A DNA stretch of 64,000 nt from a virus. Where the stretch lies: positions 62,001 to 126,000 of the IMG/VR virus record IMGVR_UViG_3300031687_000001; one strand, written 5' to 3'. This document shows, in pieces, positions 12,925 through 62,581 of the stretch. Both the position numbers and the translations under genes were made by a program. Every line of letters starts with the position of its first letter. Within the stretch, counting starts at the first letter, position 1. Below the pieces are notes generated by a model. The model did no database searches and was not told the origin of the DNA. It saw only the letters and a program-made list of their open reading frames with translations.

Positions 12925-14985
12925 TTATGCCGTTTTATTAGTATTATCAACTGCTCGTTTATAGTCATTAGATCTCTGTATGCTCTTCATAGCGGATTTC
13001 ATCTGGTTGAGAACCGCTACAGTTTGCTGTTTTGTTTTTATAATCTCTTCTATATGCTGCGACATCTTATTATCCCCAATATTAACAGGATCTTGCATCA
13101 TTTTTGTTTTATTCGTATCTGTCATTCTGCCATTCTCATTTGGTGTATCCAATCTTGTACTTTTACTTGTACCTGTACCTGTATTATTGGCAGTGGGTTC
13201 TGGCATATTTCCTTCTGTCATTGGTGTTATTGAGTGCTTTTTTCTAAACGCCTTCAACTCATCTGTGTTGCCTGATTGCTCTAGTCTAGACTCCATAAGT
13301 CTAATCTGGTAATCTTTAAATGTTTCATCGTCTTTCTTGTAAAGCAAGTTAGTCTCTGGTTCATTTGATCTGTTTAATAAGTTTTTCATAGACTCTGTTC
13401 CAGATTTCAATCCATTTGCAAGTTTTTCTGCCATATTAGATGCTTCATCTAAGTTATAAACAAACGCATCTTGAATTATCATGAATGTTTTTTTCATATT
13501 GTTCATCGCGACTGTCATTGCACCAGATGTGACTGATTTCTCTTCTATTTCTTTAAGATATGTGGCGTACTCACTTTTGCTCATACCAATCAATTTTTTC
13601 ATTTGTTTGTCTACCATAACACCACCAGCTTTCAACTGTTGAATGATATGCTGAACCGAACCAACTACTACATTACTTGACCCTACTTCTGCATCACGCA
13701 TCTTTGCCATCTCTTTAACGAGCATCTTATTTGCGCCATCTATATCGCCAGACCTAAACACCTCATTGACTCTATCAGTGAATCCATTATTTGCAGCATC
13801 GAGTGCTGTAGCCAAATCTGGTCCCAATGCAACTGCCATATCAAAATCTGCTGGGGTGTCTGCCACTCTAAAGATATAATCATTAAATCTATCAGATATA
13901 TCTTTTCCGACAGGACCCATAGAACTTTCAAGTAGTGCAAATTGTGATATGAACGATCGTGCTACTTCTGCGTGTCCGCCTCCCGCTTTATCCATTGTTG
14001 CCAATGCTGCTGCAACTTGTGGTTGCGATAATGAGGCTAAGCGTTTCTGTAATATTTCTGATCTATTCTCACCTGTCAAACTTGCTAATGCGGTTGTTTC
14101 AATCATCAAATTATGAAATCCTAATTCAACACTATCTTGAGTGCTTAATAATGCCATATCTTTAGATAATGTCATACGCTGTATGTTTACATAATCAGCT
14201 AAAACTTCTGCCATTTCTGCCGATCTTAAACCGTAGTCACCAAATTTATCACCTGTCTCATTGACCGACTTGAACATTGATGTAAATGCAGTCGTACCAC
14301 TTGATACCCCATTGCCCAATGACTGAAATGCAACGCCATTTTGACTAACTAGTTTGGTTAATTCAGTATATGTTAGACCTGATGCTATCGCTGATTGCTT
14401 CAATGTTTCATATGGAGATGTATCGCCAAACATGATTGCACCAGAATTTATCATAGTCTCTTGTGCTTTTGCAAATTGTTCTATTTGTCCGACTTGAAAG
14501 CCTGCCCATGCTAATGCTGTACCGGCAAGTGCACCAACTCCAATGCCTGCGGTTTTTAATAACTTCCCTGCCTTAGAGTTTGCATCAATGTCCTTTGTCA
14601 TTCCCTTTGCACTACCAGAAATAGCCCCAACCATATCGCCAAGCATATCTACCATTGAAGTAAGTGGTGCATCAGTATTACTAAATTTGTCAACCGCATT
14701 TTTAGTTGATTTTGCTGCACCAACTAGTTTTTTGTCTAGAGATTCTTTCTTTGCTATCGATACTTCTTCATTACTTGAAGCATATTCCTTTGCAATTCCT
14801 TGAATATCATCGGATAACTGTGCTGTATTTACCGTACCTGTCTTTATATGCTTTGCTATTACACTTGACATAAGATTAGATGTACCAGTTAATTCTGCTA
14901 TTTTACTGAGTGTTTCTTCACTAGCCCATTTAGGTATTTGTATTGATATTCCTTCAACTTCGATAGTGTGTGTTTTATCCGCCAT
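12925..14985 (-). CDS. Putative tape-measure-like protein, paralogue 1 (686 aa)
   Basis: A 686-aa Ala/Met/Ser/Gly-rich helical protein with an N-terminal motif WASEETLSKIAEL. A hydrophobic Gly/Ala segment near residues 145-170 (GIGVGALAGTALAWAGF) could be membrane-active. A long helical region follows, ending in a polar Thr/Asn-rich tail. This architecture resembles tail tape-measure proteins, which sit inside the tube and enter the host membrane. Its upstream neighbour has exactly the same length and matching landmarks, so the two are paralogues. The start overlaps the neighbour's end by 11 nt. It is next to the portal and the gp26-like chaperone candidate. A direct tape-measure role is inferred, not proven. 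Confidence 0.55.
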   Translation of the reverse strand: MADKTHTIEVEGISIQIPKWASEETLSKIAELTGTSNLMSSVIAKHIKTGTVNTAQLSDDIQGIAKEYASSNEEVSIAKKESLDKKLVGAAKSTKNAVDKFSNTDAPLTSMVDMLGDMVGAISGSAKGMTKDIDANSKAGKLLKTAGIGVGALAGTALAWAGFQVGQIEQFAKAQETMINSGAIMFGDTSPYETLKQSAIASGLTYTELTKLVSQNGVAFQSLGNGVSSGTTAFTSMFKSVNETGDKFGDYGLRSAEMAEVLADYVNIQRMTLSKDMALLSTQDSVELGFHNLMIETTALASLTGENRSEILQKRLASLSQPQVAAALATMDKAGGGHAEVARSFISQFALLESSMGPVGKDISDRFNDYIFRVADTPADFDMAVALGPDLATALDAANNGFTDRVNEVFRSGDIDGANKMLVKEMAKMRDAEVGSSNVVVGSVQHIIQQLKAGGVMVDKQMKKLIGMSKSEYATYLKEIEEKSVTSGAMTVAMNNMKKTFMIIQDAFVYNLDEASNMAEKLANGLKSGTESMKNLLNRSNEPETNLLYKKDDETFKDYQIRLMESRLEQSGNTDELKAFRKKHSITPMTEGNMPEPTANNTGTGTSKSTRLDTPNENGRMTDTNKTKMMQDPVNIGDNKMSQHIEEIIKTKQQTVAVLNQMKSAMKSIQRSNDYKRAVDNTNKTA

Positions 14986-17035
14986 TCATATTCTCCGTTA
15001 CTGCCGTCTTTTCTATTACTTCGGTTATTTCTTTAATTTTTTTACCAATCATACTATCTAATTGGTGCATATTGTTAAACTTCATACCAACTACATTTAA
15101 CTCATCTACATATACTTTTTTACTACCTATAGGTGAATTAGGATCTTTTATATTAGCATACCATCTACCATTAGGTCGTTGAATTGGAACAGGTCCGCCA
15201 CCTTCTGCAAATTGTCCGGGACTAAAATTCTTGTTTAAAATATTATATGCATTAGTATATGCATTAGCATATGCTGCTTTCTGTTTTAGTGTTTGTGCTT
15301 TCTTATATGCGTCATATGCCTCTTTTACATTATCTGACATATCATCATAATTCTCGTCTGTTACTACACTTCCAGCGCCGCCATTTGACATCATCTTCTG
15401 AGACATATTGGCGCCTGGATTGGTAACTTCGGGTTCTATTGGCTTATCTTCTGTCTTTATCAATCCGATAAATTCAAATGCAGATTGCACTAATCCTAAA
15501 GCACCTGAAAAGCCTTTAACGGCAGTTGCACCAAGTGCATAACCTGGAGTTAATTCGTTCACAACTGTTCTAAATCCAACTCTTGCTGCATCTATTGCAT
15601 CTATTGAACTATCTGCTTGCTCGGTTAATGATTTGACACTCTCTAATCCAGCGTCTAATTGATCTACTGTCAAATCCATAAATGCTTCTGGTGCTATACG
15701 CGCTTGTGCTATTAAATCGTTTGATTGTTGCACTATCGGGTCATCTCCATATCTAGGACTCGCCATTGATATTGATGTTGTTAATTCTTTTACTTTCATA
15801 ACCAATTCTGGTTGTGATAATTTTCCTGTTCCCGCTTGTTCCATTATATCTTTGAATTGAGTAGACACCTCTGGTCCCAGTGTACTCAACATATTAATCA
15901 TATCAGTCGGCATGTTATTTAAAACAGATGCGTCTATATTAATATCTTTCAACATATTGTTAAACACTTGCTCAGTTTGTTCCCCAAACTGCGGACCCAA
16001 TACTGTACTGAATAACATCTTTATATTTGCACCAGTATTTTTAACATTCTCTGCTGCATTTTCACCATATGTCTTTGCTAGATATTCGCCATTCATTGAC
16101 ATTGCTGTCATGAAATCTATGTTTGTCATCGCTTCGCTTCTCATCGCTAATAACGCACTTCGTTGACTACCAAATTTTTCTGCAAGGAAAGTGGTCATCG
16201 CACTACTTGACTCGAAATTCTTTCTTATTTTATCTTTCGTCAATTGACCAAATTGTTCCAATTCACCTGACATATACATTAAATTGGCTTCTTCTAACAA
16301 TCTTGTAGTCATTTGCTCAACGCCATAACCAAAATCGCCCATTGTCTTTGATGTTTCAGATTCTACTTTTCCAGAAAAATCTATAAATTGCTTCGTAGTA
16401 TTCATCAAACCGTCTGGCAGATTTGCAAGCATGGCTTTGTTTCCATTCATGACCTTTGTCATTTCTTGCATACTCATACCAACGCCTGCCAATGATCCTC
16501 TCATTTCAGTATATTGCGACATATCACCAACAACACCACCATAATCAATTACCTGTCTTAATCCTTTTTCTTGCTCCGACATAAGTTTTGCATATATTGC
16601 CGCTACACCGACTGCCGCTACACCAACCCCCACAGCCCCATCAACCACCCATGACACTGCTGCGGCTTTAGGACCTAGAAACTGTGTAAAAGAGGTAATA
16701 CCACCAACGGTAGCAGAAATAGCCCCAACGCTCATCTTCAATAGTTCTGCGGTTGCTTCTAATGGGTCGGTATCTCGCGACACGACAGAGAACATGTTTT
16801 TAGTTCCATCTTCCATCTTTGTAATTAATTTGTTAGTTTTCTTAAATAATTCCTCAGCGTCTTCAAACTCTTTTTTAACAGAATCATAATCAAACTCAAC
16901 ACCTGTCAATGATTGAAATACTTTCTTTAATTTGGCATTCTCGGTGCGTGTGTTAGAGGCAATCTTCCCCAATGTGTCTTCACTTGCCCAAGGATAATCA
17001 TTGTGAATCTTCCTGATGTCGTCTTCTATTGCCAT
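14975..17035 (-). CDS. Putative tape-measure-like protein, paralogue 2 (686 aa)
   Basis: The ATG at 17035 (MAIEDDIRK) is preferred over the upstream Met at 17074, and gives 686 aa, the same as its neighbour. Landmarks are PWASEDTLGKIA near the N-terminus, a Gly/Ala/Val hydrophobic segment (VDGAVGVGVAAVGVAAIYA), YGGVVGDMSQY and GDFGYGVEQM. All have counterparts in paralogue 1 (WASEETLSKIA, GIGVGALAG..., GDYGLRSAEM). A short Gly/Pro-rich C-terminal part carries RPNGRWYANIKDP. It is the first gene behind the late box at 17098-17105. A tape-measure or internal tail role is inferred from the helix-rich, membrane-prone make-up and the adjacent chaperone-like gene. Confidence 0.55.
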   Translation of the reverse strand: MAIEDDIRKIHNDYPWASEDTLGKIASNTRTENAKLKKVFQSLTGVEFDYDSVKKEFEDAEELFKKTNKLITKMEDGTKNMFSVVSRDTDPLEATAELLKMSVGAISATVGGITSFTQFLGPKAAAVSWVVDGAVGVGVAAVGVAAIYAKLMSEQEKGLRQVIDYGGVVGDMSQYTEMRGSLAGVGMSMQEMTKVMNGNKAMLANLPDGLMNTTKQFIDFSGKVESETSKTMGDFGYGVEQMTTRLLEEANLMYMSGELEQFGQLTKDKIRKNFESSSAMTTFLAEKFGSQRSALLAMRSEAMTNIDFMTAMSMNGEYLAKTYGENAAENVKNTGANIKMLFSTVLGPQFGEQTEQVFNNMLKDINIDASVLNNMPTDMINMLSTLGPEVSTQFKDIMEQAGTGKLSQPELVMKVKELTTSISMASPRYGDDPIVQQSNDLIAQARIAPEAFMDLTVDQLDAGLESVKSLTEQADSSIDAIDAARVGFRTVVNELTPGYALGATAVKGFSGALGLVQSAFEFIGLIKTEDKPIEPEVTNPGANMSQKMMSNGGAGSVVTDENYDDMSDNVKEAYDAYKKAQTLKQKAAYANAYTNAYNILNKNFSPGQFAEGGGPVPIQRPNGRWYANIKDPNSPIGSKKVYVDELNVVGMKFNNMHQLDSMIGKKIKEITEVIEKTAVTENMNGG

Positions 17036-17057
17036 AATTAAGTACCTATTTAATGAG

Positions 17058-17065
17058 GATAAATA
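17058..17065 (+). promoter_or_regulatory. Late promoter GATAAATA for the gp26-like gene
   Basis: GATAAATA on the plus strand, 54 nt before the ATG at 17119. It overlaps in range with the opposing minus box at 17098-17105. Confidence 0.5.
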
Positions 17066-17097
17066 TAGATACACACCTATATTATCACTTTACTTAC

Positions 17098-17105: not shown

Positions 17106-17118
17106 TGGAGCAGAAAAA

Positions 17119-17949
17119 ATGAGTAACAATCCTTTATTGAAAGCGTATAAAATACCATCAATGTACATAAGTCTACCTTCTGGTGGACAATACTATACCG
17201 AAAAGCCTAAATTAAGTGCTGACGGTGAATTGGCAATCTACCCAATGACAGCAAGAGATGAAATAATCTCAAAGACACCAGATGCGTTATTTAACGGAGA
17301 AGCAACGATTGCGTTACTTTCCTCGTGTTGTCCAGATATCACTGATCCTAAGTCAACGCCTGTTAATGATTTAATGGTTCTTCTACTTGCAATACGCAAA
17401 GCAAGTTATGGGGATGGAATAGATATCGATATTAAATGTCCGTCTTGTGGCGAACTTAATATGCTTGAAATGGATATTAACAGAATTCTAGGATCTGTTA
17501 AGGCGATAGATGTATCAAATAATTTGATTCTGCAAGATAAATTCAATGTTAAATTGAAACCATATAATGTGAATGATAGAACATTAATTCAGATACAGCA
17601 AATTCAACAAGAGAGAATGATACAAGAACTCGCTAATACTGAATTATCTGATGCTGAAAGAAATGAAAAATTTGGAAAAACATTTGTAGAAATATCAACA
17701 CTGACAATTGATCTTATGGTTAATTGTATCGTATCTGTTACCTACGATGATAATGAAATAACTGATATAGAAACTATTCGTGAATGGTTGCACAATATTT
17801 CAAAAAGCGATTATAAAGATATGAAAGATCATATTGAAAAGATATCCGATAACGGTATCGATACCAAATTTAAAGCAGTATGTCAATCGTGTTCGCATGA
17901 ATGGGAATCTGAGGTAGAACTCGATATGTCAAATTTTTTCGCAGGCTGA
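17119..17949 (+). CDS. gp26-family baseplate/tail protein; candidate tail assembly chaperone (0-frame product)
   Basis: A 276-aa protein beginning MSNNPLLKAY, with GGAG 8 nt before the ATG at 17119 (a longer frame from 17053 lacks this). It holds PSGGQYY, YPMTARDEI and a Cys pair in IKCPSCGELN, plus a second pair in CQSCSHEWESEVEL near the end. Together they suggest a zinc ribbon. These features fit the T4 base plate protein family typified by gp26. It lies beside the tape-measure-like pair. Its last codons before the stop form a slippery heptamer, after which a 68-codon frame continues in -1, as in lambda G/GT-type chaperones. A baseplate hub role is the family annotation; the chaperone role is inferred. 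Confidence 0.75.
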   Translation: MSNNPLLKAYKIPSMYISLPSGGQYYTEKPKLSADGELAIYPMTARDEIISKTPDALFNGEATIALLSSCCPDITDPKSTPVNDLMVLLLAIRKASYGDGIDIDIKCPSCGELNMLEMDINRILGSVKAIDVSNNLILQDKFNVKLKPYNVNDRTLIQIQQIQQERMIQELANTELSDAERNEKFGKTFVEISTLTIDLMVNCIVSVTYDDNEITDIETIREWLHNISKSDYKDMKDHIEKISDNGIDTKFKAVCQSCSHEWESEVELDMSNFFAG

Positions 17950-17965
17950 TAGCAACAAGTCAGCC
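17934..17965 (+). promoter_or_regulatory. Candidate -1 programmed frameshift signal
   Basis: The heptamer T-TTT-TTC (17934-17940) fits X-XXY-YYZ in the zero frame (AAT TTT TTC). Three nt later begins a stem GGCTGA (17944-17949) / TCAGCC (17960-17965), extendable by GC/GC around a bulged A. It contains the zero-frame stop TGA (17947-17949). Slippery site plus hairpin is the standard layout of -1 frameshift elements. Confidence 0.7.
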
Positions 17966-18146
17966 GCACGAAATTCCTGATATACTTGACAGATACCAAG
18001 ATGATCTAACTAAGTTAAATTCAAATCATATGGATATTCTTATCATGTCACATGGTGCAATGACATACGAATCATTGATGACAATGCCAGTGCCCATGAT
18101 AGACTTGTTCATCAAACGATACAACGAGAGGAATAGTGAATCTTAA
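17940..18146 (+). CDS. -1 frameshift extension of the gp26-like protein (68 codons, no own start)
   Basis: In the -1 frame the sequence is open from 17913 to the stop at 18144-18146. It reads RRLIATSQPHEIPDILDRYQ and continues to MTMPVPMIDLFIKRYNERN. No ATG, GTG or TTG occurs before the internal ATG at 18030, so the conserved-looking upstream part can only be made by frameshifting from the gp26-like gene, giving a 342-aa fusion. The end LMxMPVPMIDLFIKRYNER looks like a real helical protein end rather than chance. An internal start at 18030 would make a 38-aa protein. Its stop overlaps the convergent gene by 4 nt. Confidence 0.65.
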   Translation, partial: RRLIATSQPHEIPDILDRYQDDLTKLNSNHMDILIMSHGAMTYESLMTMPVPMIDLFIKRYNERNSES

Positions 18147-18158
18147 TCGTTCACTATT
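18132..18158. terminator. Inverted repeat across two convergent stop codons
   Basis: AATAGTGAA (18132-18140), 9-nt loop, TTCACTATT (18150-18158): a perfect 9-bp stem that spans the ends of both convergent genes. The T-run after it is short, so it may act as a weak bidirectional terminator or RNA-end protector. Confidence 0.45.
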
Positions 18159-18631
18159 TCGTCGTAATACTCTTGTGTCCATGAATCATAGTAGTTCGTT
18201 TTAATAAGTTTTTTACGACGATCTTCTATGTCTTCTTTTATCTGTACAATAATAATACGAGTAAAGTTCTTAACGAATAATCCACTCAATTCAGTACTTA
18301 CAAAATAATGATGTTCTGGATATAACGCACGCATTTCCGATGTGATGCTATCTAGTACATCTATATCACAATCATCTCCCATCCAACAAACAGCCATTTT
18401 AAACTGACTCTTATCAAATGTCTCTAATGCAGACTTTGAATAACTCAAATCTCTACCATCCATGAATTGAATTTCGCCATTGACTCTTGCTTTACGAGCA
18501 TAAGGACAAACAGGCCAACCATCGCCTTTATCTTGTTCAATCACATCCATAGTAAACTTAATAAAATCATTCTTAAATGATTCAAACTCTATTGCTTTTG
18601 GTGATCTTTCTTTTAGTGACATTGTACTCAT
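18143..18631 (-). CDS. Hypothetical protein, 162 aa, with WPVCPYARKAR motif
   Basis: I do not recognise the family with certainty. The protein starts MSTMSLKERSP behind AAGGAG and a late box at 18653-18660. A central DGWPVCPYARKAR segment is followed by CWMGDDCDID and later by YPEHHYFVSTE. The CP-x-A-x-x-AR motif and further Cys could bind a metal or form a redox site. The C-terminal part is amphipathic and charged. Similar short proteins occur in marine myoviruses. It is transcribed late and stands alone between the chaperone-like gene and the structured region. Confidence 0.6.
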   Translation of the reverse strand: MSTMSLKERSPKAIEFESFKNDFIKFTMDVIEQDKGDGWPVCPYARKARVNGEIQFMDGRDLSYSKSALETFDKSQFKMAVCWMGDDCDIDVLDSITSEMRALYPEHHYFVSTELSGLFVKNFTRIIIVQIKEDIEDRRKKLIKTNYYDSWTQEYYDEIVND

Positions 18632-19417: not shown

Positions 19418-19876
19418 TTATAAGCCCGAGGATTTAGTTTCTTGTAGGTATTCTTTAAGAACTTTTGATCCGCCTACTCTAACGTTAATGATTCCATTGT
19501 AGTAATCATCTGTTTCAAGTACTCTGCGTTCAAACTGTTCGCGTGCTTCTAGGTAACTTGCAATGCCCCTTGTAGGACACATATGAATAATTTCTCTTGT
19601 GAAACTATCTTTACCTAGTGCTTCAACGTCTGCATTAAGTCTATCACTAGAGCCGAAATATTCTCTCCAGTCACTTTCTTTAGTGCCACGTCTCTTATTC
19701 TTTTTTCCCTTTAGTGGTGGTTTAGTAGTTTTAAACTTTGCTAATTTTTTACCTATATATAACATACCACTAACAGTATTTGTTATCAGATACACAAATG
19801 CTTCACACCCATCCGGCAATGCTTCTATAACATTACCTTCGTATGTCCAGTCATATGTAATTTTATTTTTTTCCAC
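19418..19876 (-). CDS. GIY-YIG-like endonuclease domain protein
   Basis: A 152-aa protein with VYLITN (residues 28-33) and MLYIGKK (38-44), the spaced YI/YIG motif of GIY-YIG nucleases. SDWREYFGSS, and ASYLEAREQFERR with a candidate catalytic Glu, follow. T4-like phages often carry such small nucleases as homing (Seg-type) or DNA-repair proteins. It has no obvious DNA-binding extension. It is last in the gp55-gp47-gp46 operon, overlaps the upstream small gene by 14 nt and lies next to the structured region. Whether it is selfish or recruited for recombination is open. Confidence 0.65.
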   Translation of the reverse strand: MEKNKITYDWTYEGNVIEALPDGCEAFVYLITNTVSGMLYIGKKLAKFKTTKPPLKGKKNKRRGTKESDWREYFGSSDRLNADVEALGKDSFTREIIHMCPTRGIASYLEAREQFERRVLETDDYYNGIINVRVGGSKVLKEYLQETKSSGL

Positions 19877-61682: not shown

Positions 61683-62581
61683 AATTAAGGTTGGCATTGT
61701 CGAATGGTGAATATTTATATATTGATCTGGTTGACGATGATTGGATACATCAATGGGCAAAAAAGATCACAACATTAGAATTAGATATCACGGAGCATGT
61801 AGCACTTGGGTCTATTTGTAATACAGACCACAATGTACTATTCGATTGTATCGATAACTTTATATGCGTACTCAACGAAGAACTTTCTAATTTAGGAATA
61901 ACCGTACCAGATTTTTTGCCAACTGCAATAGATCTCAAAAAATTAGATTCACGTGATATACAAATGCATTTAAATCGTATTCATCGCTGGCTTGTTTTTA
62001 TGATGTTTAGAAAATCTTATATAGTAAATAACCAAGATTATATACCCAATAATATTAATGAACTATTTGAAACACAATATGATAATATGATGACTACGTT
62101 ATTAAAGTTAAATCAATTAGTACATGCAATTGAAAGCAATTACACTAGTCCTGGGACAGACACATTCCCTGGCAATCAACATCAACATCCATATTGGGAT
62201 CAAGCATTTAAGGGCGATGATGTAATTTCATTAGCAGCAGATGCGCCACTTGAGCGCATGTTATCTACAAACAATCATGATGTGTGGTTAGCAAAGCGAA
62301 TACTAGGCAAAGACTTTAGAGAATGCTGGCTTGACAATGATGATCCGTCATACGAAGATATTACCAATATAGGTGAGATATTGCATTATGCATTTGAAGT
62401 TGACCCACTTAATAATTTAGATGACTTCTACAACAGTGAGCAATTCGCTTCATGGATGAAGCAGTACGGACGTGATATAAATAATATAGGAAGAATACCA
62501 ATTGGAAATATTATAGACATGCCAGATAATATATATGAAATAATGCAATGTTGCACCATAGAAAAGATAGAGATAATATGA
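61679..62581 (+). CDS. Uncharacterised cassette protein, family copy 2 (300 aa)
   Basis: Homologous to the 327-aa protein at 55841: SNGEYLYIDL at the start, LNRIHRW, VWLAKRILGKDFRECWLDND, DITNI and NIGRIPIGN. The conserved Trp-Leu, Gly-Lys, Cys-Trp and Asp/Asn residues are kept in both. No known fold is recognised. Two copies of one family in one cassette suggest that both act on related substrates. Overlaps both neighbours (ATGA type). Confidence 0.65.
   Translation: MKLRLALSNGEYLYIDLVDDDWIHQWAKKITTLELDITEHVALGSICNTDHNVLFDCIDNFICVLNEELSNLGITVPDFLPTAIDLKKLDSRDIQMHLNRIHRWLVFMMFRKSYIVNNQDYIPNNINELFETQYDNMMTTLLKLNQLVHAIESNYTSPGTDTFPGNQHQHPYWDQAFKGDDVISLAADAPLERMLSTNNHDVWLAKRILGKDFRECWLDNDDPSYEDITNIGEILHYAFEVDPLNNLDDFYNSEQFASWMKQYGRDINNIGRIPIGNIIDMPDNIYEIMQCCTIEKIEII

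Follow-up and report, generated by a model that had tools for sequence, protein, structure and literature searches.

We identified, in a marine phage, a gene that probably (at about 0.88) encodes a tail assembly chaperone of the T4 gp26/gp51 family, predicted to be made as a short form of 276 aa and, by -1 programmed frameshifting, as a long form of 342 aa. The gene lies in a window of 64,000 nucleotides, the whole stretch that was analysed (positions 62,001 to 126,000 of IMG/VR virus record IMGVR_UViG_3300031687_000001). The source record has 148,882 bases and may be incomplete. An earlier note on this DNA had proposed the -1 frameshift, the resulting fusion and its tail-chaperone type, and this reading is supported as far as sequence can tell.

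Predicted slip site and products

Direct reading of the sequence places the gp26-family gene between ATG 17119 and TGA 17947-17949, with 276 codons for amino acids (Table 1). Its final codons, AAT TTT TTC GCA GGC TGA, contain T_TTT_TTC in the phase required for a tandem -1 slip. The stem of a hairpin starts three bases 3' of this heptamer and includes the 0-frame stop. The -1 frame is bounded upstream by TGA 17910, is open from 17913, and ends at TAA 18144-18146. A slip would add 68 residues and give a 342-aa fusion with the predicted junction peptide ...DMSNFF-RRLIATSQPHEIPDILDR. The earliest start in the -1 frame of the window is at 18030, 83 nt past the 0-frame stop. The in-phase T-TTT-TTC at the gene end, the GGCTGA/TCAGCC stem three nt further on with the zero-frame stop inside it, the 68 open codons to 18146 and the absence of a -1 start before 18030 (for ATG, GTG and TTG) had all been described in the earlier note, and each is present in the sequence. 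The C-terminal residues quoted there needed correction, as the product ends ...RYNERNSES.

Table 1. Features of the gp26-like gene and its putative -1 extension (positions in the window)
Feature	Position	Strand	Basis or remark
GGAG, likely ribosome-binding site of the gp26-like gene	17107..17110	+	sequence reading; 8 nt upstream of ATG 17119
0-frame gene, predicted short form (TAC-N), 276 aa; PF12322 T4_baseplate / phrog_150 baseplate hub	17119..17949	+	
Slippery heptamer T_TTT_TTC	17934..17940	+	sequence; in-phase TTTTTTN in 59/66 family records
Hairpin 5' arm GGCTGA, holds the 0-frame stop TGA 17947-17949	17944..17949	+	
Hairpin 3' arm TCAGCC	17960..17965	+	third pair C-G or U-A; paired in 12/12 distinct sequences
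-1 frame extension (putative TAC-C domain), 68 aa + TAA; predicted long form 342 aa	17940..18146	+	
First ATG/GTG/TTG of the -1 frame past the slip site (ATG), 30 codons into the extension	18030..18032	+	

Most ribosomes would terminate at TGA 17947 and release the short form. In a minority, the Phe-tRNAs paired with UUU (P site) and UUC (A site) would slip back by one base on U_UUU_UUC, a step that may be aided in the window clade by the hairpin three bases downstream, which holds the stop. The slipped ribosomes would continue to TAA 18144-18146 and produce the long form, with an extra helical C-terminal domain. On the model of lambda gpG/gpGT, the pair would act by coating the tape measure protein and recruiting tail tube subunits. 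We infer the slip itself, the slip rate, the role of the hairpin and the chaperone function from the sequence.

In phages lambda (gpG/gpGT) and P2 (gpE/E+E'), a short form and a -1 frameshifted long form act on the tape measure protein. The likeness of the window gene to these systems would lie in the two-form arrangement. As differences from lambda and P2, two CxxC pairs are conserved in the gp26 family, and the window gene is divergent from its large neighbours.

Conservation of the arrangement and of the hairpin

Relatives were gathered by similarity to the 0-frame protein, not by the motif, and the gene ends were then inspected. Similarity searches matched 93, 276, 9 and 918 phage records, from which 29 named ones were read (30 with T4). 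The resulting 66 records are the window, 36 IMG/VR loci and the 29 named phages, selected for diversity; at 70% protein identity they form 30 clusters. Excluded from the count were L048 and L049 (same contigs as L010 and L011), L063 (the 121Q genome again), L068 (a partial match), L037 (T4, read separately), and L001 and L038-L047 (stretches of counted records or of T4).

The check proposed in the earlier note, whether relatives lack the heptamer, came out in favour of frameshifting: an in-phase TTTTTTN stands near the gene end in 59 of the 66 records and in 23 of the 30 clusters. The -1 frame extends 52-77 codons beyond the 0-frame stop in all 59 slip-bearing records. The heptamer is TTTTTTC in 20 of the 23 slip-bearing clusters and TTTTTTT in XacN1, CM1 and Melnitz, and across the wider family the 0-frame stop lies 7 to 70 nt downstream of its first base. 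On its own the heptamer proves little, because in-phase T_TTT_TTN is not rare in this genome (8 in the 52 ORFs of the window, 19,873 codons). The spelling NNT-TTT-TTC is used for 2 of 25 Phe-Phe pairs, the pair of the gp26-like gene included. The arrangement as a whole goes beyond chance because of its conservation across these records and clusters.

Five other IMG/VR contigs (L002-L004, L012 and L013) have an identical 0-frame protein (100%) and the same sequence. Twenty-one -1 products, together with the +1 product of SP-15, align over most of their length and have a pattern in common, at identities to the window's product down to 12%; this alignment leaves out the -1 products of cyanophages, Melnitz, Aeromonas 65, phi-Grn1, CM1 and LR756511. 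The FF in the aligned products results from the heptamer, which encodes it. With the 70-aa -1 product as query and a limit of E <= 1, tblastn matched 17 phage records, the best at 1e-4 and most at 0.1-0.2, nearly all over a baseplate, structural or hypothetical gene pair. In the window the C-terminal domain lacks a start of its own at the junction, and in the -1 alignments of the jumbo/marine group it is conserved as a continuation.

Selection on the -1 frame was compared among five near relatives (the window, L005, L007, L008 and L009). Past the stop, variable columns at -1 codon positions 1, 2 and 3 number 18, 4 and 35, of 66 each; ahead of the first start codon they number 9, 4 and 12, of 28 each. 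Compared with each of the four others, the window has dN/dS values of 0.07-0.30 over the whole -1 part and 0.10-0.33 ahead of the first start. The pairs L005/L007, L005/L008 and L007/L008, which have few synonymous changes, give 0.64-0.73 and 0.74-1.32, respectively, values that weigh against the frameshift reading. The 35 nt from the heptamer onward, which take in the entire hairpin, are invariant in all five sequences despite a 0-frame dS of 0.30-0.93.

The two nearest clusters comprise 25 records, of which 18, with 12 distinct sequences, were examined for the hairpin. All 18 form the stem, with every one of the six pairs that join 25-30 to 41-46. The third pair is C-G in seven and U-A in five distinct sequences, and both of its bases are at positions that are synonymous in their respective frames. 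The outer pair 24-47 is G-C in seven of the 12 sequences and unpaired in five, including the window. Three of five covariation measures (cells paired, both-side-change cells and covariation score) beat all 500 shuffles, and two (pairs with change on both sides, and pair types) fall within them. The tree requires at least two switches of the third pair. Well-supported branches (2 of the 10 inner branches are starred) force one switch only, so the covariation is modest evidence.

Downstream folds are significant in the window (z -3.0) and L008 (-3.1), whereas z is -0.8 to -2.7 in L010, L050, L054 and L057 of the L010 cluster. Among 25 downstream folds across the family (z -3.5 to +1.7), no family-wide stimulatory structure was found; L014, Atu_ph07 and Cassandra also have z < -3, but the shapes differ. 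A pseudoknot between loop and downstream sequence, noticed by eye in the L010 cluster, was rejected, as it has no counterpart in the window clade. The hairpin conservation that the earlier note had suggested checking holds in the sequences compared from the two nearest clusters, and does not extend to the wider family. Since no common structure was seen beyond those clusters, the slip site is general and the hairpin a local addition. The hairpin of the window clade is thus clade-specific, and its covariation is confined to one pair.

Relation to T4 gp26 and gp51

The 0-frame protein matches PF12322 (E 1.8e-21; 77.3 bits, curated cut-off 24.5) and phrog_150 (E 1.6e-24). Its AlphaFold2 model has a mean pLDDT of 84.7. 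Among predicted models in BFVD, the top match is 'Baseplate hub assembly protein, bacteriophage T4-like' (TM 0.87/0.85); SP-15 (TM 0.64/0.71) and gp26 of Aeromonas phage 25 (TM 0.49/0.65) are also matched. The model of the -1 domain is helical (mean pLDDT 86.4), and BFVD has nothing for it at E <= 0.001. Foldseek found no PDB match with E <= 0.001, and PDB sequence searches gave chance-level matches only. VIA-align Z values peak at 7.6 (0-frame model) and 4.3 (-1 domain; 13 chains aligned), in the tool's unspecific range. A single PF12322 copy was identified in the window's own record, the 192-kb L004 contig, the L009 contig, Phosso, Atu_ph07, Cassandra, 121Q and SP-15; T4 has two.

Both T4 gp26 and T4 gp51 belong to PF12322 (8.8e-64 and 3.9e-52), and thus to the family of the window gene. 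The phrog_150 match covers gp51 to its end (13-280 of 282) and stops at 235 in gp26. Because gp51 alone spans the end of phrog_150, it looks like the long form and gp26 like the short one. T4 makes its two forms from two genes, whereas the window would make them from one. The T4 gp26 protein ends ...KEFFELL, with FF encoded by TTC TTT, which is not slippery, and gene 25 starts at the gp26 stop. The earlier note knew of no frameshift in T4 gp26; its account is amended in that T4 has the short and long forms as genes 26 and 51.

In cyanophages P-SSM4 and S-SSM5, the 'gp51' annotated after gp26 (62 and 61 codons with stop) is the -1 frame behind TTTTTTC, and matches phrog_634. By its layout, the cyanophage 'gp51 baseplate hub assembly catalyst' (L069:3531-3734 and L070:3193-3393) is the -1 part of gp26. 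T4 gp51 is also matched by phrog_634, at 147-246. No phrog_634 match was found in the window's own record, although a non-match with this tool does not show absence.

We tested profiles of the -1 domains, setting each score against 200 shuffles of its own target. A cyanophage-group profile, built from five -1 domains (two cyanophages, Melnitz, Aeromonas 65 and phi-Grn1), matches T4 gp51, in its C-terminal extension, at 18.2 bits (0 of 200 shuffles as high, best 6.8) and IME-CF2 gp094 at 27.6 bits (0/200). It also beats all own shuffles for SP-15, GXN1, Mel-JY01 and LIS04 (11.6 bits; best shuffle 11.1). Against the window it scores -0.8 bits (133 of 200 shuffles as high), and it does not rise above own shuffles for LR756508, L010, CBB, Phosso and L062. 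A jumbo/marine -1 profile matches phi-Grn1 (13.6 bits, 0/200; best shuffle 6.1) and beats all own shuffles for SP-15 (9.7; best shuffle 8.9), LIS04 (13.9), LR756508 (18.7) and Mel-JY01 (21.7). With this profile, P-SSM4 has 3.0 bits (10/200), S-SSM5 2.3 (17/200) and Melnitz 1.0 (66/200), and GXN1, Aeromonas 65, IME-CF2 gp094 and 0507-KN2-1 are not above shuffles. A direct likeness between the -1 domain of the window group and the C-terminus of T4 gp51 was rejected (hhalign probability 0.6%; profile 0.6 bits, 44/200 shuffles). Because this direct match is absent, the -1 domain of the window is tied to T4 gp51 via intermediates and the N-terminal family.

Some relatives differ from the -1 arrangement. 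The +1 (= -2) frame carries the C-terminal domain in SP-15 (L036:3752-3976), LIS04 (L074; host Listeria), GXN1 (L075; Streptococcus), LR756508 (L072) and Mel-JY01 (L081; Microcystis). Close to these junctions lies UUU with C, A or U as the next base; three of the five also have CCC GA there. These are likely the same domain, since one or both of the -1 profiles score each of the five above all of its shuffles; both profiles match LIS04, SP-15 and Mel-JY01, narrowly in one each for LIS04 and SP-15. Klebsiella phage 0507-KN2-1 (Ackermannviridae; L080:2289-2465) has a 54-codon -1 extension with no canonical heptamer, which matches the cyanophage-group profile (12.9 bits, 0/200 shuffles). IME-CF2 has two separate genes, as in T4.

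There is an even chance that the gp26/gp51 family kept one protein pair but varied how the long form is produced, and that the window-clade hairpin, kept by compensatory change, tunes the slip. Jumbo phages, marine phages, cyanophages and certain Vibrio and Aeromonas phages would then rely on the -1 slip, SP-15, LIS04, GXN1, LR756508 and Mel-JY01 on a +1 (or -2) shift, and T4 and IME-CF2 on separate genes.

Vladimirov, Gautam & Davidson 2022 (Virology 566:9-15) reportedly identified gp26/gp51 as the tail assembly chaperones of T4-like phages (TAC-N/TAC-NC), with -1 frameshifting in several T4-like groups and two distinct genes in T4. When the earlier note connected the gp26 family with tail assembly chaperones, it therefore drew a link that was not new, and we file the window gene under a known kind. 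The TAC-N/TAC-NC proteins are of the same family and have a short and a long form as predicted for the window; the hairpin is specific to the window clade. Section 3.8.3 of PMC12846349, citing Vladimirov et al., states that TAC-N genes in T4-like phages have polyT -1 signals. Another paper cites the same work for T4-like phages in which the short and the long form have a gene each (PMC10274946). We found no literature report of a gp26-type frameshift in jumbo or uncultured marine phages, nor of the clade-specific hairpin with one covarying pair or the five +1-frame relatives; subscription papers were mostly outside the coverage of the search, which makes this weak evidence.

Alternative readings, annotation and genomic context

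There is a slim chance that a small gene of its own occupies the downstream frame, translated by re-initiation of ribosomes that finish at the 0-frame stop. Existing annotation agrees with such a gene: among 22 named phages with the -1 arrangement (two records are unannotated), 18 of the 20 annotated records list a separate small CDS, RaK2 and Cassandra leave the -1 frame unlisted, and none joins the frames. Start codons are also available: in 39 of the 59 slip-bearing records the -1 frame has ATG, GTG or TTG in the interval from the heptamer to 25 nt beyond the stop. Phosso shows an ATGA overlap, and 121Q and BF have an ATG directly past the stop. Re-initiation could thus add product in those 39 records. 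It cannot, however, yield the 30 codons of the window ahead of 18030, and it leaves the strict phase of the heptamer without a reason. The remaining 20 slip-bearing records have no start in that interval, and the -1 ORF of Cassandra has none of the three codons anywhere. The earlier note's question of whether relatives encode the downstream part with its own start therefore has a divided answer. A very slim chance is left for RNA polymerase slippage on the six-U run, which would give a mixed mRNA pool. The motif does consist of T alone over six or seven bases, but polymerase slippage usually requires longer runs. The run is held at six T and then C, in one codon phase, in 20 of the 23 slip-bearing clusters, and the hairpin just behind it in the window clade suits a ribosomal stimulator. 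For a frame split by sequencing error or gene decay there is nothing beyond the usual prior for an interrupted frame, and this is very unlikely, to the point of being negligible, because the same sequence was found in the five other contigs and the same arrangement in 23 clusters.

It is also possible, though unlikely, that the frameshift is real and the protein is a baseplate hub component, not a chaperone of the tape measure. Family names read baseplate hub, and the CBB record names the protein 'structural', which counts against the chaperone reading; chaperones are not expected in virions. Frameshifted pairs of a short and a long form are, on the other hand, typical of chaperones. In SP-15 and LIS04 the gp26-family gene lies between the tail tube and tape measure genes, adjoining the latter. 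A T4 review (PMC3004832) gives genetic support for gp26 in the hub, but it also tables gp26 and gp51 as hub assembly chaperones, with gp51 absent from the final particle.

The reading that we prefer, a frameshifted chaperone gene of the gp26 type, suggests that many 'baseplate hub' plus 'hypothetical protein' entries of large phages are one such gene, and offers a simple rule for spotting these genes. The family would also allow slip direction to be compared with separate genes as ways to set the ratio of the two forms. The general picture of tail assembly is unchanged.

The earlier note had placed the gene beside a tape-measure-like pair. This is not established, as neither of the divergent ORFs at 12925-17074 could be matched convincingly to a family (no Pfam match, and PHROG at most weak, E 0.037). 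The two stand in tandem on the minus strand, each about 690 aa long, and point away from the gp26-like gene; their starts have similar motifs (WASEETLSKIAELTGTSN / WASEDTLGKIASNTRTEN), and they may have arisen by duplication. On the other side, a minus-strand ORF at 18143-18631 (phrog_10325, unknown function) overlaps the extreme end of the -1 extension in tail-to-tail orientation. Further along, at 19418-19876, we identified a SegE-type GIY-YIG endonuclease (PF19835, E 1.5e-32) near SbcC/SbcD-like (gp46/gp47-like) genes. The phrog_447 label for this protein, 'NAD synthetase', looks wrong.
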